From a virus: DNA of 22,359 bases. The notes under the pieces are model-generated. The model was not told where the DNA came from, ran no database searches, and saw only the letters and a list, made by a program, of their open reading frames with translations. The DNA lies in the IMG/VR virus record IMGVR_UViG_3300027852_000180, positions 1-22,359 of that record. The stretch is one strand, 5' to 3'. Positions 1 to 22,359 of the stretch are shown piece by piece. Each line of letters begins with the position of its first letter. Positions within the stretch are counted from its first letter, which is position 1. Made by a program: the position numbers and the translations under genes.

Positions 1-699
1 TGTCCGGCTATCGAGAGTGGCAACGTAGACCTCCTCCGAGAAGAGATCAGTGTTGGCTACGAAGAAAGCGTCCCGGGCGGAGTTCGCGACCCCGTTTATA
101 ATTGTCCGGGTTATAGCGTTAGCGTTCCGCCGGGTGATCTCTGTAAGGCCATTACGACCGGACGTCCTAGTTGTGCCTACAATCCGACGGCTGATCTGGG
201 AGGCGCTCTCGCCTTGAACCATACCGATCCTCACTGACCCGAGGATGCGGTCAAGGTCGGTCTGCGCTACTCCCTTGGCCCAATCCTTCAGAACCTTTCC
301 TTGGTACGGACGAGCGTTGACGAGCGCCTCAAGAAGGGGTGATCCGGGGAGGATCGTATCAAGGACTACCGGCGCGACTGTGTGGAGGAGGCCTTGGACA
401 AAAGCAGGCTCAGTCTTCGCCAGCTCCCTCATCTCCTTGACCCAAAGGTCTGTTACCTCGTCCCAAGCCCGGAGCCGGGTCGTTCGGATGGACCTCTCAA
501 GGAGCCTCAAGCGAATGAAGTTCTGTGTGGTCGGGCCATCCGGGAAACGCTTAGCTCTACGGGCGATCTGGGAAACAATATCAGCCTCGGTCTCGTCAAG
601 AATACGTTCTATGCTCTTCTGCATACCCTGGGAGAGGCGGAGCAGGAAGACTTGGTGACGCACCAGGGCGTCGAAGAACTCCTCGTTGACGGTGGCCAT
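1..699 (-). CDS. Phage head morphogenesis protein (SPP1 gp7/Mu gpF-like), C-terminus cut off by the window edge
   Basis: An open frame runs from an ATG at 699 to the window edge without a stop, so at least 233 residues are seen and the C-terminus is missing. The visible part is mostly helical and charged. It ends in a stretch around residues 150-230 (GMVQGESASQISRRI, then TRTIINGVANSARDAFF) that resembles the SPP1 gp7/Mu gpF minor head protein domain, where repeated Arg/Asn helices precede the conserved core. Such proteins sit inside the procapsid beside the portal and help head assembly or DNA ejection. The neighbours fit: terminase, portal and this gene lie in one same-strand run. The start follows the stop of the 74-residue gene after one base. 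The assignment rests on sequence style and gene order, not on a complete domain. Confidence 0.7.
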   Translation of the reverse strand, partial: MATVNEEFFDALVRHQVFLLRLSQGMQKSIERILDETEADIVSQIARRAKRFPDGPTTQNFIRLRLLERSIRTTRLRAWDEVTDLWVKEMRELAKTEPAFVQGLLHTVAPVVLDTILPGSPLLEALVNARPYQGKVLKDWAKGVAQTDLDRILGSVRIGMVQGESASQISRRIVGTTRTSGRNGLTEITRRNANAITRTIINGVANSARDAFFVANTDLFSEEVYVATLDSRT

Positions 700-700
700 A

Positions 701-925
701 TCAATTCCCAATCAATTTCGGTTCGACCGGGAGAAGGTTACAAGGCATTCCGATATCAATGTCAGCTTTCATCTTACCCTGCTTTTCAGGCCAGACTGAG
801 GCGAACCTCAACTCATCTACCCACTCAGGTCCATTCCCTGCGCGTCCGAAGTACCTGCCATTGCGTTCTATGACTACGAGTTTCTGGTATCTCTTCAAGG
901 GTCGATCCTTTCTAAACTTCGTCAA
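701..925 (-). CDS. Small hypothetical phage protein, 74 aa
   Basis: A short basic protein (MTKFRKDRPLKRYQKLVVIE at the N-terminus) with no family that I recognise. It has no membrane segment, signal peptide or Cys cluster. It overlaps the end of the upstream metallophosphoesterase gene by 14 bp, and its stop is one base from the start of the head-morphogenesis gene. It is therefore almost certainly co-transcribed and probably translationally coupled with both. The residues GRYFGRAGNGPEWVDEL look like a small beta fold, but this is only an impression. Its position between head genes suggests a structural or assembly accessory role; nothing in the sequence proves it. Confidence 0.6.
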   Translation of the reverse strand: MTKFRKDRPLKRYQKLVVIERNGRYFGRAGNGPEWVDELRFASVWPEKQGKMKADIDIGMPCNLLPVEPKLIGN

Positions 926-2183
926 GCATTTCTGGGGAGATATTGACTGTGCCTGTCTGTCCCCAACGGCTGTGGTAGGTTATACCTCGGGCCTCTCGAA
1001 GGGAACCCCACCCCCGGCGTGCTGCGTAGGCGTCCCTGGTAGCCAGCGTTGGGTGTTGTATGACCCGGGCACCTCTCGGTTCGACTTCAGTCGCATAGTG
1101 AAGGTGGCCAGTGTGGATATAGACTTTCTTTGCCTGACCCCACATCTCCCGAAACTCGTCTGCAAAGATCGCGGTTAGGTCCTCAGCGTTCTTCGGAGCC
1201 TTTCCCAAGGACTTGTAGTGACCGTGGTGGAACCCAACGAAGACGTCCCCGACCAGAACTGCATAGTATGGGCGCTCGTCTTCGACGACTGTGACCCGGG
1301 GCTCGTTCTCGAAGGCCACAATGAAGAGTTCGCGCAACCAGTTCGCTGCGATGATATCGTGGTTCCCCTCGGCGACGAGTAGGGTGACGGTCTCGTGATG
1401 AAGGAGGGCCTCGTTGACGACCCGGCGAGCGATCCTGATCGCGGTCTTGTTCATCTTACCGCGACGACCGTCGCTGTCCAATATATTACCCGACAGGGTC
1501 GTCACAGCCTCAAACTTATCATAGTGCATCCAGTCCCCGAGGAGGGCTACGATAGCGTTGGAGGCTGAAGGCGAGGCGTGGATCATAGTCGCCATTGCCT
1601 TCGTGAACATAACCTCAGCAATAGCAAGGTCCCAATCATCCCCAACTTCAGGAGCCCAAGACAAACCGCCGATATGGGCGTCCGATAGGACATACAGGTT
1701 GGTGAGGTCGGGCTGGTAGAGGAGAGCCTCAGTAGGGGTAGGTTCAATCCTGGTGATGTCTTCGGAGAGGGCCTCGGCCATCTCCTTCATATTATTTGCT
1801 GCTTCTTCCTCGCCGGGGGTCGTTATCTCCCACTGAGCCCTGATCTGCCCGTCGGCCCCTCGAAGGGTAGAGACCCTGACTGGTCGGGCGAGGGGATCGG
1901 CGAAGACGTCGTCCTCAAGTTGCGGCATCTCTTGTACGGAATATGAAGTAGGGGTTCCGTCCCGATCCAGCTGCGTCGAAACCTTGGTGATTTTCCGTCC
2001 CGACCCGGGCTTCCAGTTCGGGACTGCTCGATCTTTGTTGAGCTTCCCTTTTTCTACACAGCTCTTAATCCGCTTGTATACAGTGCGCTGTGATAGGCCA
2101 AGACGCTCAGCAAGGTCCTTGTAGGTCCCTTCGTTCGCCAGGTACTCATGAATAAAAACTTCCTCTGAGACCTTAGTCGGCAT
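912..2183 (-). CDS. Metallophosphoesterase with N-terminal helix-turn-helix domain
   Basis: A 423-residue protein with two parts. Residues about 5-45 form a helix-turn-helix (GTYKDLAERLGLSQRTVYKR), which suggests DNA binding. From about residue 155 there is a calcineurin-like metallophosphoesterase with its metal ligands in order: D168 and H170 in LSDAHIGG, G216-D217 in LLGDWMH, GNHD at 273-276, H319/H320/H322 in FHHGH, and GHLH at 359-362. Such enzymes use two metal ions to cut phosphodiesters or phosphomonoesters in nucleic acids or nucleotides. All ligands are present, so it should be active. The start at 2183 has a Shine-Dalgarno AAGGAA that overlaps the upstream stop. It lies among head genes, an odd place for a nuclease-like enzyme; a role in packaging, in DNA end processing or as a late regulator is inference. 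Confidence 0.85.
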   Translation of the reverse strand: MPTKVSEEVFIHEYLANEGTYKDLAERLGLSQRTVYKRIKSCVEKGKLNKDRAVPNWKPGSGRKITKVSTQLDRDGTPTSYSVQEMPQLEDDVFADPLARPVRVSTLRGADGQIRAQWEITTPGEEEAANNMKEMAEALSEDITRIEPTPTEALLYQPDLTNLYVLSDAHIGGLSWAPEVGDDWDLAIAEVMFTKAMATMIHASPSASNAIVALLGDWMHYDKFEAVTTLSGNILDSDGRRGKMNKTAIRIARRVVNEALLHHETVTLLVAEGNHDIIAANWLRELFIVAFENEPRVTVVEDERPYYAVLVGDVFVGFHHGHYKSLGKAPKNAEDLTAIFADEFREMWGQAKKVYIHTGHLHYATEVEPRGARVIQHPTLATRDAYAARRGWGSLREARGITYHSRWGQTGTVNISPEMLDEV

Positions 2184-2193
2184 AGGTTGTTCC

Positions 2194-2430
2194 TTAATGC
2201 TCGGGAGGGTTTAGAATGTCCTCTGCCATCGTTCTTAGACTTCTTTCGTCTTCGGAGTCAATACGATAGCACCAAGGGCAAGTTGGATGGTTAGGGTCAA
2301 AAAGGCCGTCGCAAAGACGAGCTCCCCTACAGACGAGGATATCTCCCCCGGGCTCAAGTATAGAGAGGGCTGAGTCCAGGGCCTCTTCAAGGAGACTAAG
2401 CGTCTCCTCCGTTGGTATTGGTGTCGTCAT
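2194..2430 (-). CDS. Small Cys-containing hypothetical protein, 78 aa, possible zinc site
   Basis: A 78-residue acidic protein of unknown family. Four cysteines (C34, C40, C51, C54) with H48 are arranged as C-x5-C ... H-x2-C-x2-C (CRGARLCDG and HPTCPWC), which could hold one zinc ion. The start at 2430 lies inside the end of the portal gene (35 bp overlap). The portal codons for its acidic tail are repeats of GAGGAC, so they also place Shine-Dalgarno-like GAGGA sequence just ahead of this ATG, and translation is probably coupled to the portal. It could be a head-joining or portal-associated accessory protein, but no homologue is recognised. Confidence 0.6.
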   Translation of the reverse strand: MTTPIPTEETLSLLEEALDSALSILEPGGDILVCRGARLCDGLFDPNHPTCPWCYRIDSEDERSLRTMAEDILNPPEH

Positions 2431-3898
2431 TCTCGTCCTCGTCCTCGTCCTCGTCGTCTACACCACGATCATCGCCCTCAATTAAGGGCTCTTCAGCCGC
2501 TATCAAAGCCATTTCTTCTTCGAAGTCGATCTCTGTGACGCCCTTCTTCTCCATAATCGAGTGAATCGTCTGGTTAGAAATTGGTGCGCCCATAGTCTTA
2601 GCTGTCATATACTCGGCGAGAGAACGGCTGTCCAGCTGGTCGTCAACAAAGTCAAGGTTCGGAGTAACCACTACTGAGGAAGGATCGGCCCCGACCCACT
2701 CAGCGGCGTGGCGCAGTGACCGTTCGAGGCCAGCGGCACCTGATAAAGCGACCGTTTGAAGGGTAGCCGTCCGAGATGAAACGCGAATGGCCAGAGCGTC
2801 GCCGCTCTCCTTCTGACGAGACGTGGAGTCAAGCAACTGACCGCCCTTCTGTCCAGCCTCGGCAAGGAGGTTCTCAATAGCGGTTCGTTGTTCAGATAGC
2901 CCTTCAGAAGACACCCCAATGTATTCGGCTGTTCCGCCCATAGGGAGATCAATCCGAGCCCCTGCACCAGTACGAAGAGCCTTGTCAGCGTCCTCAGAGA
3001 TAAAGCCTGAGGTGACCAGAGTATCCTGGCCCTGCATATAAAGGTTCTGTTGGTAGTCTGCTTCCGCCCGGTACGCGGAAATTGACAGATCAGCAAGGCC
3101 CTTGAGGGGAGGATCGTCCGGGCTTGGAATAATATCCTTGGAATTGATAAACACGAACGGAATAGAGCCCGGGACGTTACCTCCAATTGAAGGGGTCGCC
3201 ATAACAGCCTCGTTGAAGGTAGCGTTCGCCCCGGCGAAGACGCCGTATTTGTAAGCAGCAGCCTCTCCTTTGCCTTCGTTCTCTGTAGCGTCACCAAGCA
3301 AGAGGACGCGATAGCGCTCTTCCCAATCCCAAGTGAAGATATTCTTTCGAATGTTCCCGCTCTCGTTCAACACAACGAGGTTAAGGTTGCCCAGGCGAAG
3401 ATCGGAGCCAAGGGCGTCGTCCCAGTTAATGATAGCTTCAGCCTGGTACAGGGCGATGTAAGGCAGGACCTTTGCCGACGGAGAGGCCGGGAGGTCTACC
3501 AACAGCCCAAGACGACCAGCGACAAGCTGCTGCTCATTAATCCGACGAAGAAGCTGCTCAAGGCTCTCACCATTGGCCGTCGCGTTATCGCGCATAAACT
3601 CAAGCTGCTCTGGTAGCTCGATCACCGGAGGCTTCATATGCATGACGCCAAGAGCGCCTTCAACCGCGTCCGAGACAAACTCGTGGAAGATCGCTCTGTC
3701 CTTGTAGGCGTGATAAGCGTTGTATCCTACCGTGTTCACGTTCGGATAGCCGTCCTCCCGGTGAGCACCAGTAGGGGGCAGGTAGACTGTGGACTGGTCC
3801 TTGATAACCCGAGAGCCGCGATAGGTGTGACGCATAGTGATCCAGTCTTCAACGAACTCCGAGAAACTCGGATGCTTGTTGTTTACAGTGTCGGTCAT
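2396..3898 (-). CDS. Portal protein (DUF4055-type)
   Basis: A 500-residue protein directly downstream of the large terminase gene (3 bp gap), the usual place for a portal. The N-terminal half (WITMRHTYRGSRVIKDQSTV; LPPTGAHR; AYHAYKDRAIFHEFV) and the core around residues 130-165 (EQQLVAGRLGLLVDLPAS, PYIALYQAEAIINWDD) match the DUF4055 phage portal-like family in style and length. A portal forms the dodecameric ring at one capsid vertex, through which DNA is packaged and ejected and to which the neck attaches. The C-terminus is a strikingly acidic tail of Asp/Glu pairs followed by Asn/Thr/Gly. The family call comes from motif style and context; structural homology was not tested. Confidence 0.85.
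   Translation of the reverse strand: MTDTVNNKHPSFSEFVEDWITMRHTYRGSRVIKDQSTVYLPPTGAHREDGYPNVNTVGYNAYHAYKDRAIFHEFVSDAVEGALGVMHMKPPVIELPEQLEFMRDNATANGESLEQLLRRINEQQLVAGRLGLLVDLPASPSAKVLPYIALYQAEAIINWDDALGSDLRLGNLNLVVLNESGNIRKNIFTWDWEERYRVLLLGDATENEGKGEAAAYKYGVFAGANATFNEAVMATPSIGGNVPGSIPFVFINSKDIIPSPDDPPLKGLADLSISAYRAEADYQQNLYMQGQDTLVTSGFISEDADKALRTGAGARIDLPMGGTAEYIGVSSEGLSEQRTAIENLLAEAGQKGGQLLDSTSRQKESGDALAIRVSSRTATLQTVALSGAAGLERSLRHAAEWVGADPSSVVVTPNLDFVDDQLDSRSLAEYMTAKTMGAPISNQTIHSIMEKKGVTEIDFEEEMALIAAEEPLIEGDDRGVDDEDEDEDENDDTNTNGGDA
2432..2455 (-). repeat. Four tandem hexamers encoding the acidic portal tail
   Basis: Four perfect copies of CTCGTC (plus strand) lie end to end and encode Glu-Asp pairs at the C-terminus of the portal. 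On the coding strand they read GAGGAC and sit right before the ATG at 2430, so they also look like a row of Shine-Dalgarno sequences for the 78-residue gene. Such short tandem repeats can change copy number by slippage. Confidence 0.8.
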
Positions 3899-14238: not shown

Positions 14239-14624
14239 TCGTCCAACTCCTTTCGCGTTGGTTTTTGATCCCAGAGGTAGATCGTATTGCGCCTGATCTC
14301 GGCCTGGGTCGCGGTTCCAATGTTGTCGGCAGCCCAAAGACCGTCCATTAGCGCCCATTCGTAGCCTACGACGAGTAGAAAGAAAATCTTTCCGCCGCAA
14401 GCGTCTCGGCGTCGGGCGAATACCCGTTGCTGGGACGTGTAGGTCGGAATTTTGATCGCCGTCGTTGGTCGCTTGGGCCAAGCCTTCAGGTGCTTCATCT
14501 CGATCCACCCTCCGTCGTAGTTGACGTCGGGCGTTCCGGGCTTCGCTGGGTTCTCGACCGGGATCGCGTGACGGTGCGATAACTTTCTTACAATCCAAGC
14601 CCGGTCGTCTGTCTCAGTCGCCAT
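14229..14624 (-). CDS. PD-(D/E)XK nuclease (VRR-NUC/Holliday-junction-resolvase-like), 131 aa
   Basis: The catalytic core is visible: GTPDV (D33) followed after a short strand by WIEMKH (E42, K44), the D...ExK signature, and then a helix QQRVFARRRDACGG with the conserved Gln/Arg face, and KIFFLLVVGYEWAL as the next strand. The compact size resembles VRR-NUC and phage resolvase-like nucleases, which cut branched or single-stranded junctions during replication and packaging. The start at 14624 lies inside the dCMP deaminase end (11 bp overlap); the longer frame to 14723 is only a shadow. The location between polymerase and helicase supports a replication or recombination role. Confidence 0.72.
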   Translation of the reverse strand: MATETDDRAWIVRKLSHRHAIPVENPAKPGTPDVNYDGGWIEMKHLKAWPKRPTTAIKIPTYTSQQRVFARRRDACGGKIFFLLVVGYEWALMDGLWAADNIGTATQAEIRRNTIYLWDQKPTRKELDEWL

Positions 14625-15051
14625 AAAGTTCGATCTCGACCCCAGCTTCTTCAAGCATGATCGTCGCGTGGCCGAAGCTCTCTTCGAACCGTTCTGCCAT
14701 AGCTCCAGAGGGGAGGGGAGCAACGACCCGGGCGATCCCGGACTGGATGATCGCTTTGGCGCACTCGTTACAGCAGAAATGTGTCACGTGAATTGTATAG
14801 CCATGGAGAGGCTCTCGGGCGGTTAGGATCGCGTTGAGCTCCGCGTGAACCACCCGAGCATACTTGGTAGGACGGTGGTCGTAGAGACCGGGGTCGTCGT
14901 TACAGCCCCGGGGGAAACCGTTAAAGCCGGTAGAGACCACACTCTTGTCTGGACGAGTAATGACCGCCCCGACTTGGGTTGAGGGGTCCTTCGACCAGAC
15001 AGCTACGGCGGCGGCGAGGTTAGCAAAGCGTTTATCCCAATGGCTAAACAT
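14614..15051 (-). CDS. Deoxycytidylate (dCMP) deaminase
   Basis: A 145-residue zinc deaminase. The motif VVHAELNAI gives the zinc ligand H69 and proton shuttle E71, and HFCCNECAKA gives C94 and C97 as the other ligands. The earlier STQVGAVI and TGFNGFPRGC match the nucleotide-binding part of dCMP deaminases, including the usual phage length. The enzyme turns dCMP into dUMP, the substrate of the thymidylate-synthase-family enzyme encoded at 18507-19565. It overlaps the MazG-like gene by 8 bp and has a GGAGA ribosome site. No second regulatory domain is present. Confidence 0.93.
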   Translation of the reverse strand: MFSHWDKRFANLAAAVAVWSKDPSTQVGAVITRPDKSVVSTGFNGFPRGCNDDPGLYDHRPTKYARVVHAELNAILTAREPLHGYTIHVTHFCCNECAKAIIQSGIARVVAPLPSGAMAERFEESFGHATIMLEEAGVEIELYGD

Positions 15052-15343
15052 GTTGGTAGTCTCCTGACTTGGTCTTCGCCCAGCGGCGAGTAACGTTGAT
15101 AGCCATTTTCTTTTCTACCTCTTCGAGCAGATCGAAGCCCTCTTCCTCAGCCACTTGGAATAGGATGATCAGAACGTCCGCAGCTTCGCCCCGGACCTCC
15201 GCTCGTTTATCATTGTAGAGGGCGGTGAGTAGCTCCGCCATCTCTGTGTTTGCCCTGATCGCAATCTGGAGGCTATCGCTCCGACCAAATTTAGACCGGG
15301 ACCACTTGGTGATCTTGAACTGGTTCCATAGCTTTTGCATCAC
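15044..15343 (-). CDS. MazG-like nucleotide pyrophosphohydrolase, 99 aa
   Basis: A short all-helical protein with the MazG-like metal motif: ANTEMAELLTAL (E-x-x-E type) and EAADVLIILFQVAEEEG (E-x-x-D type), followed by a Lys/Arg-rich helix EVEKKMAINVTRRW. Members cut NTPs or dNTPs to monophosphates and pyrophosphate. In phages they adjust nucleotide pools or alarmone levels. The frame opens with GTG at 15343, immediately followed by ATG at 15340; both overlap the polymerase stop (GTGATG junction), and either could be the start. Confidence 0.8.
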   Translation of the reverse strand: MMQKLWNQFKITKWSRSKFGRSDSLQIAIRANTEMAELLTALYNDKRAEVRGEAADVLIILFQVAEEEGFDLLEEVEKKMAINVTRRWAKTKSGDYQHV

Positions 15344-17352
15344 TGCTCGACCTCTTTAATATAGCCCCAATTGGGACCGATTTCCGTATCAACCCGGAAC
15401 GGTACTCGACCCGGGACGACGTCTGTCATAATTTTACCGATGGCAACGCCCTCTGCTACTGAGCCAACTGTACAGTCGGTTTCGTCGTGAACCTGTAGCT
15501 GAAGGTTGTAGCCCTCCGCATCAATTTGAACCATCGCCTTTTTCATCTGGTCGGCAGACGATCCTTGGATGATCCGGTTCAAAGCTCGGTGCGTGAAGTC
15601 GTAGTTGCCTCGGCTGTCTTTCTCGAAGTTTAGGACCCGTCCGAGGATCGTCCGAACCTCGCCGACCGACTTCGCTTGCTTCTCGGCCTCCTTGGCCAGC
15701 TTACGGATGAACGGAGCCCGGTCGTCGAACGTGTCGATGACCCTTTGCCCTTCTTCTCCAGCGGTCTCGTAGACAAAGCCTTCACCGATCTCTCCCCGAC
15801 GCATAGCCGCGTCGTAGCCGTCCTCAAAGAACTCCTGAACGCGGTGGCGTCCGTCGCGGTAGGCTACACACCAACGGGTTGGAAGACCCAAATCGAGGCA
15901 TAGCTTCTTTCCGCCCTCGCCGTAGCAGAGACCAAGATACAAGTTCTTGGCGCTCTTCCGAGGGAGGCCGGTCAGCTTCGCCATGAAGTCGTGATTGTCC
16001 AGCTTCGGGTTATCGTGGTAGGCTTGGGCTGCGGCTCTCGCTCCTGGTAGATTCATCTCGGCAGCGAAATGGGTCGTCCAGCGAGGCTCCTGCTGGGAAT
16101 AGTCGTTACAGCACCAGAGACCTCCCTCGTCGGGTATGTAGACTGAGCGCCACATCTTTGCGAAATAGTCGCGGGATGGTTGCTGCTGGAGGTTCGGGTT
16201 CACGGCGCTACAACGACCGTAGCGAGCACCCTTCTGTTCTCCGGCCTCGGTCTCCCGGGCGATCTGGTTAAATGTACAGTGGATACGACCGTTGACTTGG
16301 TACGTCCGAAGGGACCCAACGAACGTCGTCCGGAGCTTGTTGACCTTCCGAGCATTAGCGAGTGCCCAACCGACCTTTCCGCCGATCCTCTTGAATGTGT
16401 CTTGGGTGACCTCCTTCTGACCTTGGGTCGTCAGAGGTAGCTCCTCCCCGGTGAAGGCTTCAATTGCCCGGCCCATAGCCTCCGAGTTGTTGACGTTCCC
16501 GACGCCAACCTGAACTCCGGTCTCCCGGGCGACGATATCTAGGCTCCAACGTTCCCGGTCTAGGCTCCACTTCTCTATCTGGTCAATCTTCTCCCAATCG
16601 ACGGCGACGCCTCGGCGTCTCATCTTGACGAGGATCGGGAGGACCTTTGACTCAACGTCCCAGATATCGGAGCGAGAGCGTCCCCAACGGTTTTTCTCAA
16701 GCAGTTTGACTTCCTGCTTCTCAAGGATTTCAAGAGGGCTCGTCACGTCCCGCTCGGCGTAGGTTCCAACGAACCGCCCCGGGAGTTTCCACATCTCTTT
16801 CTTCGGATCGACCCCGTAGATCGCTGCGGCTTCGCGGAGTAGCTGCTCGCTTTTACTCTCCACACCCCAACGCTTCCCGATATTGATCAGGGAGTAGCTG
16901 AATTGAAGCTCGTTGATAAGGGGGTCGGCAATTTGAATGTCTCGGTAGAACTCGACCTGCGGAAACACAACGCCGTTCTCCCATAGGTAGTCGAGATCGT
17001 AGTCGAGCCGCGCACCGACAACTTCGCCTCGGAACCGCTTGGCGTTCTCCTGGAGATAACGCCAGACTTGGTCAATGTCGAGGTTGTCCCCGCCAAAGTG
17101 TCTGATCGGTAGATAGTAGCCTCGACCGATAGGCTCGCCCTTCACCTGACAGGAGAAAGATATGCCTGTCACGTACCCGCCGCGCCGAACTCCGATCCCC
17201 AACTGTTTTAGTTGGGGATCGCAAGTCTCAACGTCTACGCAGACACGGTTAAAACGCGACCAGTCAGGCAAATCGTTTAGATCAGGGGGAACCCAGTCAC
17301 ATTCCGGCTCAAACATCGGAAGTTGAAGACCAGAGTCAGTCTTCTTCGCCAT
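15340..17352 (-). CDS. DNA polymerase, family A, with 3'-5' proofreading domain
   Basis: A 670-residue replicative polymerase. Exonuclease motifs come first: VDVETCD (D40, E42), GARLDYDLDYLW (D117 or D119) and YAERD (Y198, D202), so proofreading should be active. The polymerase domain has motif A DYSQQEPR at 417-424, the O-helix RKSAKNLYLGLCYG with R465 missing its usual second Arg (Lys instead), K469 and Y477, and motif C QVHDE at 620-624. There is no 5' nuclease domain, as is usual for phage enzymes. The residue aligned with E. coli Pol I Phe762 is Leu473. The start is coupled to the upstream stop by a TAATG junction. Confidence 0.95.
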   Translation of the reverse strand: MAKKTDSGLQLPMFEPECDWVPPDLNDLPDWSRFNRVCVDVETCDPQLKQLGIGVRRGGYVTGISFSCQVKGEPIGRGYYLPIRHFGGDNLDIDQVWRYLQENAKRFRGEVVGARLDYDLDYLWENGVVFPQVEFYRDIQIADPLINELQFSYSLINIGKRWGVESKSEQLLREAAAIYGVDPKKEMWKLPGRFVGTYAERDVTSPLEILEKQEVKLLEKNRWGRSRSDIWDVESKVLPILVKMRRRGVAVDWEKIDQIEKWSLDRERWSLDIVARETGVQVGVGNVNNSEAMGRAIEAFTGEELPLTTQGQKEVTQDTFKRIGGKVGWALANARKVNKLRTTFVGSLRTYQVNGRIHCTFNQIARETEAGEQKGARYGRCSAVNPNLQQQPSRDYFAKMWRSVYIPDEGGLWCCNDYSQQEPRWTTHFAAEMNLPGARAAAQAYHDNPKLDNHDFMAKLTGLPRKSAKNLYLGLCYGEGGKKLCLDLGLPTRWCVAYRDGRHRVQEFFEDGYDAAMRRGEIGEGFVYETAGEEGQRVIDTFDDRAPFIRKLAKEAEKQAKSVGEVRTILGRVLNFEKDSRGNYDFTHRALNRIIQGSSADQMKKAMVQIDAEGYNLQLQVHDETDCTVGSVAEGVAIGKIMTDVVPGRVPFRVDTEIGPNWGYIKEVEQ

Positions 17353-17987
17353 TACTTTTCTTCCGCTTCGTTGTATCCGAAGGGGGAAGGGTGATCGACC
17401 AATCCAAAGCCCTCAACCACATTACCCTCCTCTTCCTGAGAAAGGCGAAGTTCCTTCAATTCGCGAAGACGGCGCTCAATAGCGCTCTCCTCTCTTTGTG
17501 GAGGGGCAACGACCTCAACACTGGTAGGTTGAACCCGCCCTTGGATCGGAGGAGCGTATCCCCCAGCTGCTAGACGTAGGTGAGCGTTCATAGCCGCCTT
17601 CTCGCTGTCCTCAGCGTTGTCGCGGTGAGTGGCCCCGAAGCCTCGGGCGACAAGGTCGCTCTCGACTAGCAGGAGGTAGCGGCGGAGGTCGCGGATATCG
17701 TCGATCACGCCCTCGGATCGCTGATCCGCTTCGACGTGCTCAAAGATGTCGTATCGGTTCGCCCCGGGAGCCTCGTTCTTGATTGGGCTTCCCGCGACAA
17801 CTCTCTTCAACCGGTTCTCAAGCCTGTCCCACTTCCGAGCTAACATCATGAAAGCTCCGACGCCGCCACGGGATTTCCAACTGTTCCCGTAGCTCGCTTG
17901 GGCTTTCTTCAGACCGGCTACGTCGTCGCGAGCAATCTGGTCGAGTTCGGCGAGATATCCTTCGCCTTGGGGGTCAAACTTATCCAC
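17352..17987 (-). CDS. DUF1599 (nucleotide modification associated domain 1)-like protein, about 211 aa
   Basis: The central part has the pattern KKAQASYGNSWKSRGG, then LARKWDRLENRL, then SEGVIDDIRDLRRYLLLVES. This follows the DUF1599/Nmad1 layout (YG..W, K..RL, a degenerate E..DD..DL helix), an all-alpha, MazG-like fold found beside base-modification genes. The C-terminal third is Pro/Glu/Arg-rich and probably flexible. The GTG at 17987 is preferred because AAAGGA lies 8 bases upstream and it overlaps the HD gene by only 8 bp. The frame is open to an ATG at 18029, which also has a GGAG, so 14 more residues are possible. It may help adjust nucleotide pools; the exact reaction is unknown. Confidence 0.6.
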   Translation of the reverse strand: MDKFDPQGEGYLAELDQIARDDVAGLKKAQASYGNSWKSRGGVGAFMMLARKWDRLENRLKRVVAGSPIKNEAPGANRYDIFEHVEADQRSEGVIDDIRDLRRYLLLVESDLVARGFGATHRDNAEDSEKAAMNAHLRLAAGGYAPPIQGRVQPTSVEVVAPPQREESAIERRLRELKELRLSQEEEGNVVEGFGLVDHPSPFGYNEAEEK

Positions 17988-18507
17988 GTGTCCATTCCTT
18001 TGTTTCTCCAGACCAATCGAGAAGAACATGCTGAAGCTCCGGCGGGATATCGTTCCAGCCGAGTGCGATCATGTGATCACACGCCTCTTGGTCCTTGATG
18101 TAGGTACGAGAACCCAACTTCTCCTGTTCTTGGGTCCACCACCAGAAGTCGAGGAGGTCGAGCCACTTGAGCCAACGCGCCTCTGTCGGGTTCAGATCGG
18201 GTATTTGGAGACCGCGCTCCTCCCGGACTGAATCCTCGGCGTCTTCGTAAGCCGCCCCGAGTTCAGGAAAGCCCTTCTTGCCGCCGTGCGGCATATCCCC
18301 AACGACGCGCTCCGAGGAGGTGTCGTGAAGTGAGATCGCCCGGAGTAGAGCCAGAGAAGGCCCAGGATGGAGCAGGAGGCAAGCGGAGAGCATACCGTAG
18401 GTGTGGAAGCCGTTGTTGTAGCTTCCGATATGAGGCTTCGTGTGGCAACGTTCGACATAGCTGCCTTCCCGTATGTCCCGAAGCCTTTGAGCATCTGTCG
18501 CTACCAT
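17980..18507 (-). CDS. HD-domain phosphohydrolase (YfbR-like 5'-nucleotidase family)
   Basis: A 175-residue protein with the ligands of an HD metal site in order: H35 in NNGFHTYGML, H61-D62 in SLHDTSSER, then VVGDMPHGGKKG and a later Asp in WLKWLDLLDFWWW (D117 or D120). The GDMPH segment and helical spacing resemble YfbR-like 5'-deoxynucleotidases, which remove phosphate from dNMPs. It sits between the thymidylate-synthase-like gene (TAATG junction) and the DUF1599-like gene, so a role in removing or recycling a deoxynucleotide is sensible. Which nucleotide it uses cannot be read from the sequence. Confidence 0.78.
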   Translation of the reverse strand: MVATDAQRLRDIREGSYVERCHTKPHIGSYNNGFHTYGMLSACLLLHPGPSLALLRAISLHDTSSERVVGDMPHGGKKGFPELGAAYEDAEDSVREERGLQIPDLNPTEARWLKWLDLLDFWWWTQEQEKLGSRTYIKDQEACDHMIALGWNDIPPELQHVLLDWSGETKEWTRG

Positions 18508-19565
18508 TAGGCCAGCCCCTTATCAATTGCTGCCTGGCGGCGACGTTCCAGCCATTCAGTAGCAGCGAGTTTCCAGTCCTCAGACTGACATTGGGAGACG
18601 ATCTCAATCGCCCCGTCGTAGCGGTCCAAACCCTCGCCTTCAGAATAATGCTGGTGGGCCATAAGCATCGGGATAGCTACGCGACGAAGCCAGGGGATGC
18701 GTATCCCAACAACGGGACCTTCTTCAATCAGCATCCCAATATCCTCGCGCCAAACTTGGTCGTTGGTCGAGGCGTTATTATAGAAGATTGGAAGGGCCGA
18801 GACCGTTCCCCTGGAATAGCGTCCCCTGAACGGCTCCATCTTCGTCGTAAGGTCAATCAGAGGGGCGCACTTATCCCACATACCGCCCAACTCTGTATAA
18901 GCATGCATATTAGTGCTTACCTGAGTATAGGCCCCGACTTCGACGCCGATCAGACCGGCTAGGTATTCTTGGAGGAACGAGAAGTGAACCGCGTTCGCTC
19001 CAAGAGCGCCCCAGATAAGGTCATTGGACCGGTTGAAGACAGTGAGGTCTAGCTTCCCGTTCGGAGCGATCTTCGGGATCGCTAAGAGGTTACAGGGAAT
19101 GTCTTTCGAGTTCAGACCAAAGTCGTGGTGGCCGTCCCACATAGAGATAAGAAGACGACGACCGGTCGGGTCCTTCTTCAACGCTTGAACAATCGTCTGT
19201 ATCTGGTCGATAGGGTAGCCGTCGGACGTCTCGAAGTGGAAGCGCCAGCGGTAGCCGTAAGCCCCGTTGAATGTTTTTCCGTTATCAGAGAACTGACCGA
19301 AGTTCTTCACAAATCGAGCTGGGAACTCGACATCATTGCGTCCTGCAATCATCCAAAGACACTCGGCCAAGTGGAAGAAAGGGTTGGCATCCCGCTCCGG
19401 GAAGAACAGAACCCGCTCTGTTGGGTTCTCGTACCGGATCGCGACGTCCTGATCGAACTGGCGCACTGGGCCGTTACGGCTTGGGCGTTCAACACCTAGG
19501 CGCTCAATCGCCCGTAGCATTTCCGGGAGCGCCTCTTCGACGTTTCTGAAGTTGTATGATCTCAT
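18507..19565 (-). CDS. Thymidylate synthase family enzyme (dTMP synthase or dUMP hydroxymethylase)
   Basis: A 352-residue protein of the thymidylate synthase fold. Visible landmarks: FHLAECLWMIAG at about 64-75, GAYGYRW at 101-107, GRRLLISMWD at 135-144 (phosphate-binding Arg pair), the catalytic Cys158 in KDIPCNLLAIP, RSND at 179-182, an Asn at 191 and H221-x-Y223 in the nucleotide pocket. The His-x-Tyr and Asn favour dUMP over dCMP as substrate. It is longer than E. coli ThyA (264 residues). In phages with hypermodified thymine the same fold adds a hydroxymethyl group to dUMP instead of a methyl group. The kinase and glycosylase-like genes upstream make that variant a serious possibility, but sequence alone does not decide it. 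Confidence 0.85.
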   Translation of the reverse strand: MRSYNFRNVEEALPEMLRAIERLGVERPSRNGPVRQFDQDVAIRYENPTERVLFFPERDANPFFHLAECLWMIAGRNDVEFPARFVKNFGQFSDNGKTFNGAYGYRWRFHFETSDGYPIDQIQTIVQALKKDPTGRRLLISMWDGHHDFGLNSKDIPCNLLAIPKIAPNGKLDLTVFNRSNDLIWGALGANAVHFSFLQEYLAGLIGVEVGAYTQVSTNMHAYTELGGMWDKCAPLIDLTTKMEPFRGRYSRGTVSALPIFYNNASTNDQVWREDIGMLIEEGPVVGIRIPWLRRVAIPMLMAHQHYSEGEGLDRYDGAIEIVSQCQSEDWKLAATEWLERRRQAAIDKGLA

Positions 19566-19681
19566 TTCTTAGACTTCCTTTCAAGCCAAAGTTTCATTTT
19601 GATCGCGGGGTCCCAGCGAATAGGAATAAACGCTAGTACGCCACAGATTGCGAGCAGGATATATCCAAACCAATCGGTCAA
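19562..19681 (-). CDS. 39-residue single-span membrane peptide with TTG start
   Basis: This fills the 112-base gap between the cupin and the thymidylate-synthase-like gene. The frame TTG ACC GAT TGG begins on the cupin stop (TTGA overlap), has GGAGAG 5 bases upstream, and ends with a TGA that overlaps the next ATG (ATGA). Its peptide has one hydrophobic stretch, DWFGYILLAICGVLAFIPIR, followed by a basic tail WLERKSKK, so it is probably anchored with the positive end inside. Overlaps at both ends and a good ribosome site support it, although nothing of its function is known. Confidence 0.6.
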   Translation of the reverse strand: MTDWFGYILLAICGVLAFIPIRWDPAIKMKLWLERKSKK

Positions 19682-20136
19682 CTCATCTCTCCGCAACCAC
19701 GACCAGGCGAGCCTGGATTATTTGGATCCACGAAGTCGGTCCACTCAACGAAGCCCTTAGGGCAGTGAAAGCCCCATTCGCGGATACGGGGACCCGTTAT
19801 AAACAACGTTTCACAGGGCTCGCCGTGAATAAGCTCAAGGCGGTGGGCGTCAGTTGGAGGGCGAAAGACAACGTCTCCTTCCTTAACAACTCTGCTCTCT
19901 CCGCTCGGAAGCACCTCGGCCATACGGCCTTTGGTGCAGAGCGAGATCGACGGCCAAGGATGGTCGTGAAGTGCCCGGTCATCATCGTCGTGGAGCACTT
20001 CGTGGTAGTAGATATTGAACTCAGTGTTCCGAGGGATCAGCCACCAACGCCGCATATAGGGGTCGTCTTTGTTTGGCCCAATCAAGAAGTCTGGCTCCCG
20101 GCTAGGCTTCAGGTTCTTGTAGGATGAATAGATCAT
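19678..20136 (-). CDS. Cupin-domain protein, 152 aa
   Basis: A single small cupin barrel. Motif 1 has H57-D-H59 in RALHDHPWPSISL with E74 in GRMAEV further on. Motif 2 is KEGDVVFRPPTDAHRLEL with H98. These His residues could hold an Fe2+ or other metal ion, as in cupin dioxygenases, isomerases or hydrolases. The start at 20136 is chosen for the ribosome site GGGAGGGG; the frame is open to 20187 inside the upstream gene. It lies between the glycosylase-like hypermodification gene and the thymidylate-synthase-like gene in one overlapping run, so it may tailor the modified base, but this is inference. Similar cupins of unknown role occur in other phages. Confidence 0.75.
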   Translation of the reverse strand: MIYSSYKNLKPSREPDFLIGPNKDDPYMRRWWLIPRNTEFNIYYHEVLHDDDDRALHDHPWPSISLCTKGRMAEVLPSGESRVVKEGDVVFRPPTDAHRLELIHGEPCETLFITGPRIREWGFHCPKGFVEWTDFVDPNNPGSPGRGCGEMS

Positions 20137-20137
20137 A

Positions 20138-21172
20138 TCAGTATCCCCTCCCTTCAATATATTTGGCTCGCATCTTACCCTCGCCACGTTTCATGCGGAG
20201 CCACTTATCGACTTCACAAAGGGAGTGCTCAATATCACGAATTTCGAGATCGCCCCAAGGGAACCAGCTGGCCCATTTACCCTCGTGGCCGCGCTCTCGG
20301 GCGAGATCGAGTAGCTCGCGCATGAGGGCGGAAGCCGTTGACTGATTAAGGGCTGTGTTGTGGTGAAGGTCCCGGAGACGGTTGAGACCCCGAAGAGCAC
20401 CGGGTCCGGCGTTGCCCCACTGGTAGATATCCGGTGCCTCTTCGAGATAGCGGGTATGGCGTAGGTCAGTGACGACTTCATAGGCCATGAACGGCCCCCA
20501 ACCGATGAAGTCTTTCTCTTTAGCAAGGCTTTCCCAGACCTCTTTTAGCTTGAGCTCCTTACAGGCGAATAACTCACCAAAGTGGCCGCGCTCTTTCCAG
20601 AGACGTCCGATCACGATCTGAGCGATATACTGATTCTTGGTCCAGTTGTACCATTCTGCCTTCCGATTGCTTTCGGCTCTGATCATGTAGGCCCCAGTAT
20701 AAACTTTGACCCCTTTCGCTTGATAGGTGTCGAGGGCATCCCCCATGTCAGCTGGGTCCCAATCGGAGGCGAGCGGCCAAGCCCCGGGGGTATTGATCAA
20801 CATTTCTAAGGTTGGCGGCCAGTTGATGTACCGAGCAATTGCCAGCATGATCCACAGGTTCGGATGATCCGCGAAGGGCTCCCGGATATTCTCCCTGACC
20901 CAGATTGTAACCGTATCCAGTTCGCGGAAGACGTTACAGAAGCGACCCTCGGCGAGGACTGCGTCCCGAGTGAACGAGGTCCCTTTTGGGTGTAAAGCAA
21001 AGTGATCCGGGTCGGCTTCTTCGAGATCGGCCTCCTCCGGGACGTATAGTGTCCCTGGGTCGATCCCCTCCCGGATACTCTTCCGGATATAGATCGCGTG
21101 GCGCTCTTCCATCCAAGCCCAAAGAGGGCCGGGAGCAAAAGCTGATCCGATAGCTTTTTCGTTATCCGACAT
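20138..21172 (-). CDS. DNA base hypermodification protein, HhH-glycosylase-like (aGPT-Pplase/HMUDK-helical family)
   Basis: A 344-residue helical protein. It carries signatures I associate with the glycosylase-like proteins of thymine hypermodification operons: RFCNVFRELDTVT at 77-89, GWGPFMAYEVVTDLR at 224-238, GPGALRGLNRL at 256-266 (helix-hairpin-helix-like) and DIEHSLCEVDKW at 313-324, with a basic C-terminus. Related proteins (alpha-glutamyl/putrescinyl-thymine pyrophosphorylases and the helical domain of hydroxymethyl-dU DNA kinases) act on phosphorylated hydroxymethyl-dU in DNA and put an amine in place of the phosphate. It overlaps the P-loop kinase by 11 bp, the expected partner. The amine donor is unknown. 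GGAGAG precedes the ATG. Confidence 0.7.
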   Translation of the reverse strand: MSDNEKAIGSAFAPGPLWAWMEERHAIYIRKSIREGIDPGTLYVPEEADLEEADPDHFALHPKGTSFTRDAVLAEGRFCNVFRELDTVTIWVRENIREPFADHPNLWIMLAIARYINWPPTLEMLINTPGAWPLASDWDPADMGDALDTYQAKGVKVYTGAYMIRAESNRKAEWYNWTKNQYIAQIVIGRLWKERGHFGELFACKELKLKEVWESLAKEKDFIGWGPFMAYEVVTDLRHTRYLEEAPDIYQWGNAGPGALRGLNRLRDLHHNTALNQSTASALMRELLDLARERGHEGKWASWFPWGDLEIRDIEHSLCEVDKWLRMKRGEGKMRAKYIEGRGY

Positions 21173-21842
21173 GAGGCTCTCCGTTGACTATGTCGCGCAA
21201 GAAGTTCCCTTGCGGACTGTTCGCAATAATCGTATTGTGGCCAGCGTCTTCCAGGTCCTCGTCTACAATACAGGTTTCAACCCGGAAACCAGCGGTTGCT
21301 GCTTTCTGAAGGGAGGATTCAACCGCCGATATCTTAGCAGCGACCTGTTCCTCGTTCACAGGCTTACCTCCGTTGCGTCGTTGGATGCGGGCAAGGGCGA
21401 CGTCGAGCGGGACTTCTAGTCCCATGAAAATAAACTCATGACCCTCGTCGCGCATCTCCGCAGCGAAGGCTCCCCAAGAGCCCCAGACGGTTGAGGCGAG
21501 GATACCTTCGAATACAACTGCCTTGAATTCGTGAAGCTCAGCAAGTTCGACGGCCTTTCGGATCGCGGCGAAGGCGTATTCGAATTTCTTAATTTTATCC
21601 ATACCTCCAGCCATTGTCGAATAGTCGCCGACGACGATCACAAGGTCGTCATTATTGGCGTACCCTTCGACAAACCGGTCTTTCGTCCCGGTCTTCATCT
21701 CTTCGGTATAGTAGTGGAGGTCGATCTTCTTCACCGGCGAATTTTCGTTACCGGAGAAGTTGGCGGGCTCGTGCTGGAGGAAGGTTCGAATTGCCGTTGA
21801 CTTGCCGGTTCCGTTCGTTCCTCTTACGTTGATGAGTTTCAT
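21162..21842 (-). CDS. P-loop nucleotide kinase, probable 5-hydroxymethyl-dU DNA kinase
   Basis: A 226-residue P-loop protein that starts directly with Walker A: MKLINVRGTNGTGKST (G8 to T16). A central DLVIVVGDYSTMAGGMD and AVVFEGILASTVWGSW act as the substrate-side strands, with ALARIQRRNGGKPV as a possible lid arginine helix. N-terminus and context resemble the 5-hmdU DNA kinase (HMUDK) family, which phosphorylates hydroxymethyl-dU in DNA. An ordinary deoxynucleotide kinase is the main alternative. It overlaps the glycosylase-like gene downstream by 11 bp, and a promoter candidate lies in the 62-base gap upstream. Confidence 0.65.
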   Translation of the reverse strand: MKLINVRGTNGTGKSTAIRTFLQHEPANFSGNENSPVKKIDLHYYTEEMKTGTKDRFVEGYANNDDLVIVVGDYSTMAGGMDKIKKFEYAFAAIRKAVELAELHEFKAVVFEGILASTVWGSWGAFAAEMRDEGHEFIFMGLEVPLDVALARIQRRNGGKPVNEEQVAAKISAVESSLQKAATAGFRVETCIVDEDLEDAGHNTIIANSPQGNFLRDIVNGEPHVG

Positions 21843-21869
21843 GGTTCTCTCTTTCTAGGTTCTAGGGGG

Positions 21870-21898
21870 ACTTTACTTCTCTAAGCCGCGCCGGGCAA
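21870..21898 (-). promoter_or_regulatory. Possible promoter before the kinase gene
   Basis: On the minus strand TTGCCC (plus-strand 21893-21898), 17 bases, TAAAGT (21870-21875), ahead of the kinase ATG at 21842. Each hexamer matches 4 of 6 consensus bases. The same stretch holds a short CCGC...GCGG stem and a CTAGAACCTAG palindrome, so it might also be an attenuator. Confidence 0.4.
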
Positions 21899-21904
21899 GC
21901 GGTT

Positions 21905-22359
21905 TTACTTGCGGGGGACGAAGTCTTGGAGAGAGCTGGCGAGGTCTCCCCAATTACTCAGAGAAGATCGAAGGTGTTTTGTGTCGGTCCCGATCTTGTA
22001 GCGCCCGTTCCTGGCGCTCTTCCATTTACAGAGGACGGTCTCCACCTCTTGTATATTGACTTTGCGATCCAGACGCGGAGGGGCGTCCATATAGCGGTAG
22101 GCCTCAAGGAAGATCGGTCCTACCTTCTCTGGGTTGTCCACTCCCAACAGAGGCATCGCCATCTCTGCCCCTTTTCGCGGGTCGCGGTATAGGGTTACGA
22201 TACGATTGGAGAACGTAACAGGGCGACCTAGAACGCGCTCGGCCATATCAGCAATCTTAAAGGCAATCCAGGGGCCCATTTGGGGGACCTGCGTCGTCCG
22301 CTTCACGATATCTCTCTGGGACACTACCCCGGGTTTGTCGTTGATCGTCACAAAGTCAA
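21905..22359 (-). CDS. Second glycosylase-like base hypermodification protein, N-terminus outside the window
   Basis: The frame is open to the right edge, so only the last 151 residues or so are seen; a GTG at 22351 is probably internal. The motif VPQMGPWIAFKIADMAERVL matches the GPFMAYEVVTDLR motif of the 344-residue neighbour at GP-[FW]-[MI]-A-[YF] and following positions. This suggests a related helix-hairpin-helix glycosylase-like fold, as in the clades of alpha-glutamyl/putrescinyl-thymine pyrophosphorylases. The rest is basic and helical (LRSSLSNWGDLASSLQDFVP). It is the first visible gene of the modification block and would act on DNA. Its exact clade and reaction cannot be given from a fragment. 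Confidence 0.5.
   Translation of the reverse strand, partial: DFVTINDKPGVVSQRDIVKRTTQVPQMGPWIAFKIADMAERVLGRPVTFSNRIVTLYRDPRKGAEMAMPLLGVDNPEKVGPIFLEAYRYMDAPPRLDRKVNIQEVETVLCKWKSARNGRYKIGTDTKHLRSSLSNWGDLASSLQDFVPRK

Follow-up and report, generated by a model that had tools for sequence, protein, structure and literature searches.

An uncultured phage contig with the downstream part of a probable M6-type thymine-hypermodification cassette and a cupin in its variable slot

The window analyzed here is the whole of a viral record of 22,359 bp, the last gene of which is cut by the record end. Judging from gene content and order, we consider it likely that it represents the downstream portion of a thymine-hypermodification cassette of the M6 type from a tailed phage, that a working copy of this cassette would give 5-(2-aminoethyl)-dU (5-NedU), and that the cupin and the 39-aa peptide encoded inside it are cargo. 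The analysis established the identity of the genes, their order, and their linkage to a radical SAM gene. Some bacterial viruses decorate the thymines of their DNA with enzymes of this kind and thereby resist host restriction enzymes.

An open reading frame check of the window confirmed six frames on the minus strand, in the order given by an earlier sequence-only reading. These genes and the flanking ones are as follows.

21905..22357, minus strand: C-terminal portion of the amino acid:DNA transferase ADDT (formerly aGPT-Pplase2), the 5' end of which lies outside the contig (PF18724, E 1.1e-12; phrog_6364, 3.7e-34)
21162..21842, minus strand: 5-hmdU DNA kinase (HMUDK), P-loop GTNGTGKST (PF18748, E 1.7e-12)
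20138..21172, minus strand: HMUDK_hel (formerly aGPT-Pplase1), the helical-domain protein of the 5-hmdU DNA kinase (PF18723, E 6.4e-41)
19678..20136, minus strand: cupin, phrog_4786 ("cysteine dioxygenase"), ATG start (phrog_4786, 4.7e-50)
19562..19681, minus strand: 39-aa peptide, a single hydrophobic helix predicted, start codon TTG preceded by GGAGAG
18507..19565, minus strand: thymidylate synthase (TS) homologue, probable dUMP hydroxymethylase (phrog_5131, 3.1e-114; Pfam Thymidylat_synt, 6e-22)
17980..18507, minus strand: HD-type protein, possible nucleotidase, next gene in the M6 order (43% identity to M6 gp59; phrog_6047, 1e-38)
15340..17352, minus strand: DNA polymerase A (PolA), flanking the cassette downstream as it does in M6 (47% identity to the M6 polymerase over 673 aa)
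15044..15343, minus strand: MazG-like NTP pyrophosphohydrolase, flank (PF12643, 1.3e-5, below the curated cut-off; phrog_9147, 1.6e-14)
14614..15051, minus strand: dCMP deaminase, which would supply dUMP (PF00383, 1.8e-21; 51% identity to M6 gp65 over 109 aa)

The run of minus-strand genes with mostly overlapping junctions and a 62-base gap before the kinase, as described previously, is all present in the window. The gap between ADDT and the kinase (21843-21904) was confirmed, the kinase and HMUDK_hel overlap by 11 nt, HMUDK_hel and the cupin are 1 nt apart, and the cupin/peptide and peptide/TS junctions are overlaps of 4 nt each. The "glycosylase-like fragment" reported at the upstream end does exist as a gene, but it is not a short one: it is ADDT, truncated at the contig end.

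Family matches of the core genes were far above chance in the Pfam and PHROG profile searches. The proposal of a thymine-hypermodification operon is borne out by these matches, in which both aGPT-Pplase families are represented alongside a 5-hmdU DNA kinase and a TS of the hydroxymethylase type. In the profile HMM check suggested for the kinase and the two glycosylase-like proteins, HMUDK, HMUDK_hel, and ADDT all matched their Pfam families (PF18748, PF18723, and PF18724) above the curated cut-offs. Both aGPT-Pplase proteins had been taken for transferases, which holds for ADDT, with relatives in the PDB such as 8z2m, a "Glycinyltransferase" (1.7e-26), and 25qc, another ADDT-domain protein (6e-24), but not for the old aGPT-Pplase1, which corresponds to the kinase helical domain of Pfam.

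ADDT of the window is 57% identical to that of Rhizobium phage TM26, and HMUDK_hel is 54% identical to M6 gp55 and 51% to its TM26 counterpart. HMUDK has an identity of only 27 to 35% to its relatives (35% to both M6 gp54 and TM26), and its Walker A motif is intact in the alignment. The TS homologue is 49% identical to M6 gp58 and keeps the catalytic Cys, as well as the Asn of RSND..GAN, in the alignment; its closest solved relative by sequence is the CMP 5-hydroxymethylase 5jnh, rather than a TS. For many phages, both RefSeq (e.g., NC_007809.1 gp054 and NC_047876.1) and PHROG 800 label HMUDK as "terminase small subunit", an apparent mislabel that hides such cassettes.

The sequence-only reading saw no radical SAM gene and left the final group open. 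This conclusion does not hold, as the gene seemed to be missing only because the window contig stops inside ADDT. Another IMG/VR contig, L004 (4,352 bp), shares 2,411 bp with the end of the window, differing from it only at two Ns of its own, and extends ~1.9 kb upstream. The extension encodes the N-terminal portion of ADDT, a small HEVLH-motif protein, and, in a 5'-truncated gene that ends <1 kb past the window edge, a radical SAM protein. The radical SAM protein is 76% identical to that of Rhizobium phage I72, 66% to that of Pam3, and 64% to M6 gp53. It matches phrog_9252 (1e-175), had no Pfam match in the profile search, and keeps the CxxxCxxC motif in the alignment, except that L004 has an N at the first Cys. 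Genes that seem absent at the end of a contig can be misjudged: here, the decisive one is located just past it.

ADDT is distributed over both contigs: its C-terminal part lies in the window, and L004 encodes the N-terminal part in a different frame; the split falls near codon 115, just outside the window. The frame break (L004, ~1,850-1,950) adjoins a conserved RRHWRG motif. L004, which holds three Ns, is the only cover of this spot, and no second contig was found for it. The break may be an assembly error or may reflect a dead gene. The small protein between radical SAM and ADDT belongs to phrog_1233 and is found in many cassettes (L004:1057-1545, L013:3104-3475, L014:11331-11684, and also L015-L018 and L020), the HEVLH motif being that of the L004 copy.

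For comparison, 99 HMUDK_hel loci from IMG/VR and GenBank were mapped (the window counted in and a few contigs fetched twice), together with 24 further loci from bacterial genome contigs. The usual order in the mapped loci is PLP, radical SAM, (HEVLH protein), ADDT, HMUDK, HMUDK_hel, a slot, TS, and HD, with PolA further on. An M6-type PLP (PALP) gene was present in 18/18 tested records bearing radical SAM and in 0/8 of those with a flavin enzyme, which gives a simple genomic rule, radical SAM being accompanied by PLP and the flavin enzyme occurring without it. No PLP gene was found in the window or on L004, which ends before the place expected for it; given the 18 records, the population in the window very probably carries this gene too. 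The radical SAM gene in L004 and the rule together point to the known 5-NedU as the predicted product. Several Hyphomicrobiaceae and other, mostly alphaproteobacterial, contigs (L196, L197, L198, L200, L202, and L208) have HMUDK_hel and TS followed by a homologue of the window gene at 17352-18029; neither HMUDK nor ADDT was recognized within 6 kb in these contigs, which possibly represent a reduced or different system.

In the pathway that we propose, dCMP deaminase and the TS-like hydroxymethylase would generate 5-hydroxymethyl-dUMP, which the phage polymerase would incorporate, and the 5-hmdU DNA kinase, with HMUDK_hel as its partner, would phosphorylate the base in DNA. ADDT would then swap the phosphate for an amino acid, which is most likely glycine. 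The radical SAM enzyme encoded just past the contig end would rearrange this glycine, and an upstream PLP enzyme, outside the sequence at hand, would remove the carboxyl group. Lee et al. reportedly described in 2021 that ADDT puts glycine on phosphorylated 5-hmdU, that the radical SAM enzyme isomerizes it, and that the PLP enzyme decarboxylates it. The cupin and the 39-aa peptide, as cargo in the variable slot between HMUDK_hel and TS, would probably stand outside this pathway.

At other loci, this slot is either empty or occupied by Nmad5 (20/66 entries), by homing endonucleases of the HNH or GIY-YIG type, by an APS kinase together with a sulfotransferase-like protein, or by other small genes, which makes it a variable site to mine for real tailoring enzymes. 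Nmad5 was not found in the window, in a search without a positive control. In the locus with the APS kinase (PF01583, 2.7e-12) and the sulfotransferase-like protein (L082/L188, IMGVR_UViG_3300033143_001775, 1-3022), a PIG-L-type de-N-acetylase is located upstream of HMUDK_hel, together with a possible glycosyltransferase fragment that has no family match and is suggested by reading of the sequence. This set of genes hints at a thymine that is glycosylated, de-acetylated, and sulfated; IMG/VR yielded no close relative of the locus.

The 39-aa peptide has a best 18-residue Kyte-Doolittle mean of 2.26 and no family match in the Pfam and PHROG profile searches. That it forms a travelling pair with the cupin was rejected, with a small hydrophobic ORF found after 2/91 cupins versus 4.7% after other genes. 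Neither is it convincing as a conserved gene preceding TS: 7/66 entries pass, and five of these are one near-identical peptide of a single group. A near-identical 35-aa hydrophobic peptide (MWTWLTTPPDDAW...) is found just before TS in L046, L047, L048, L025, and L027, at the position of the 39-aa peptide of the window, and M6 gp57 (37 aa, Trp-rich) occupies the same place.

The cupin was aligned and modeled with the window and IMG/VR sequences only as input. Residues H57, H59, and H98 are invariant in the alignment (A3, 25 sequences), and the AlphaFold model (pLDDT 83.5) matched the cupin fold in the PDB; on this evidence, the protein is a genuine cupin with a predicted three-His metal site. 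The fold matches many metal cupins at tied scores, including dioxygenases and the nucleoside dehydratase Pac13. In the fold search with the cupin model, Bacillus subtilis CDO (4qm9) had a Z of 10.9, tied with many unrelated cupins at 10.7 to 12.0, and therefore the substrate cannot be named from the fold. Among the phage cupins of phrog_4786, that of the window is 62% identical to Labrenzia phage V1 and 66% to L108; the relatives examined sit in phages without a hypermodification cassette, unlike the window cupin. In GenBank, the family accounts for 76 records, most of them from phages of Mycobacterium and Gordonia, with no cassette in the six surroundings read. IMG/VR adds >500 stretches with relatives, and no hypermodification genes were found within 6 kb in the best 80. 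Among the 66 locus entries with HMUDK_hel and TS, plus the window, only this population has a cupin in the slot, and the 24 loci from bacterial genomes have none. As many relatives live in phages without the pathway, the cupin most probably occupies the variable slot as a passenger. A tie to DNA methyltransferases was also considered and dropped, as some lie within 1 kb but only 4/88 are adjacent, with no strong link. In L094, L098, and L101, a distant cupin lies 0.7 to 4 kb from HMUDK_hel; no cassette kinase or TS was recognized beside it, so this is a different arrangement.

The sequence-only reading proposed that the cupin may supply a new tailoring step, which gene context across relatives does not support. 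As a metal-dependent tailoring enzyme (for instance, a lyase or oxygenase with the attached amino acid or 5-NedU as its substrate), it would make the final base differ from that of M6. The gene is inserted between HMUDK_hel and TS with tight junctions and is therefore probably cotranscribed with both, its three His are invariant over 25 relatives, and the fold resembles that of metal cupins, dioxygenases and Pac13 included. The slot, moreover, often harbors Nmad5, a family named for nucleotide modification, and once the APS kinase and sulfotransferase-like pair. We nevertheless hold this role to be doubtful, since the cupin is in no other hypermodification cassette mapped, since it occurs away from the pathway in the best 80 of the >500 viral relatives and in the GenBank phages whose surroundings were read, and since homing endonucleases in the slot indicate that it accepts unrelated cargo. 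Rarity by itself does not exclude a role, because a cupin can be recruited once. A more ambitious version, in which a recruited metal enzyme would oxidize or cleave the side chain that thymine carries, be it the amino acid or the aminoethyl group, to yield an undescribed DNA base, and the slot would act as a plug-in site for tailoring enzymes, appears unlikely to us.

Loss of function would have a different outcome: were the cassette degenerate in this population through a broken ADDT, its DNA would have only 5-hmdU or its phosphate. The frame break is indeed found in the sole contig covering the middle of ADDT. Decay is nevertheless quite improbable, given that L004 has ambiguous bases, that the C-terminal part of the gene remains open with good conservation, that the rest of the core genes are intact, and that ADDT runs as one uninterrupted frame in nearly all relatives. 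That these are ordinary nucleotide metabolism or repair genes (a dNMP kinase, DNA glycosylases, and a true thymidylate synthase), with no base modification, is scarcely credible. TS and P-loop folds are common to such enzymes, and HMUDK_hel and ADDT had been read as glycosylase-like, but the family matches are specific and above curated cut-offs, the order is in common with M6, and the closest solved TS relative is a hydroxymethylase. We thus retain the M6-type cassette with cargo in its slot as the best explanation, the points against it being the broken ADDT frame in L004, the PLP gene missing from both contigs, the N at the first Cys of the radical SAM motif, and the low identity of the kinase to its relatives.

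M6 DNA contains 5-NedU (PMC6449724), and the M6-like cassette as published consists of a hydroxymethylase, Nmad5, aGPT-Pplase1, a kinase, radical SAM, a PLP enzyme, and aGPT-Pplase2, upstream of a polymerase (PMC9476957). The M6 cassette shares with that of the window population the TS-type hydroxymethylase, HMUDK_hel, HMUDK, radical SAM, ADDT, HD protein, PolA, and dCMP deaminase, in the same direction and nearly the same order. However, in M6, ADDT and the PLP gene come before radical SAM, while here radical SAM comes before ADDT; the M6 slot is occupied by Nmad5 instead of the cupin; and M6 has a PLP gene, whereas the two contigs of the window population show none. Pseudanabaena phage Pam3 has the order of the window (PALP, radical SAM, ADDT, HMUDK, HMUDK_hel, slot, TS, and HD), again with Nmad5 in the slot where the window has the cupin.

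The Rhizobium phages RHph_I72 and RHph_TM26, which rank with the nearest in sequence (radical SAM 76% identical to I72; HMUDK_hel 51% to TM26), have the same order of radical SAM (I72) or FAD enzyme (TM26), ADDT, HMUDK, HMUDK_hel, and TS, but they lack the cupin and contain a PNK-like gene and small genes inside the cassette, TM26 being of the flavin-type branch. The PaMx11-type flavin/acetyltransferase branch likewise shares ADDT, HMUDK, HMUDK_hel, and TS with the window, but has an FAD enzyme and an acetyltransferase in place of radical SAM and PLP; the radical SAM gene in L004 argues against this branch for the window population. The comparison extends the M6-type cassette, in all likelihood, to another uncultured phage population.
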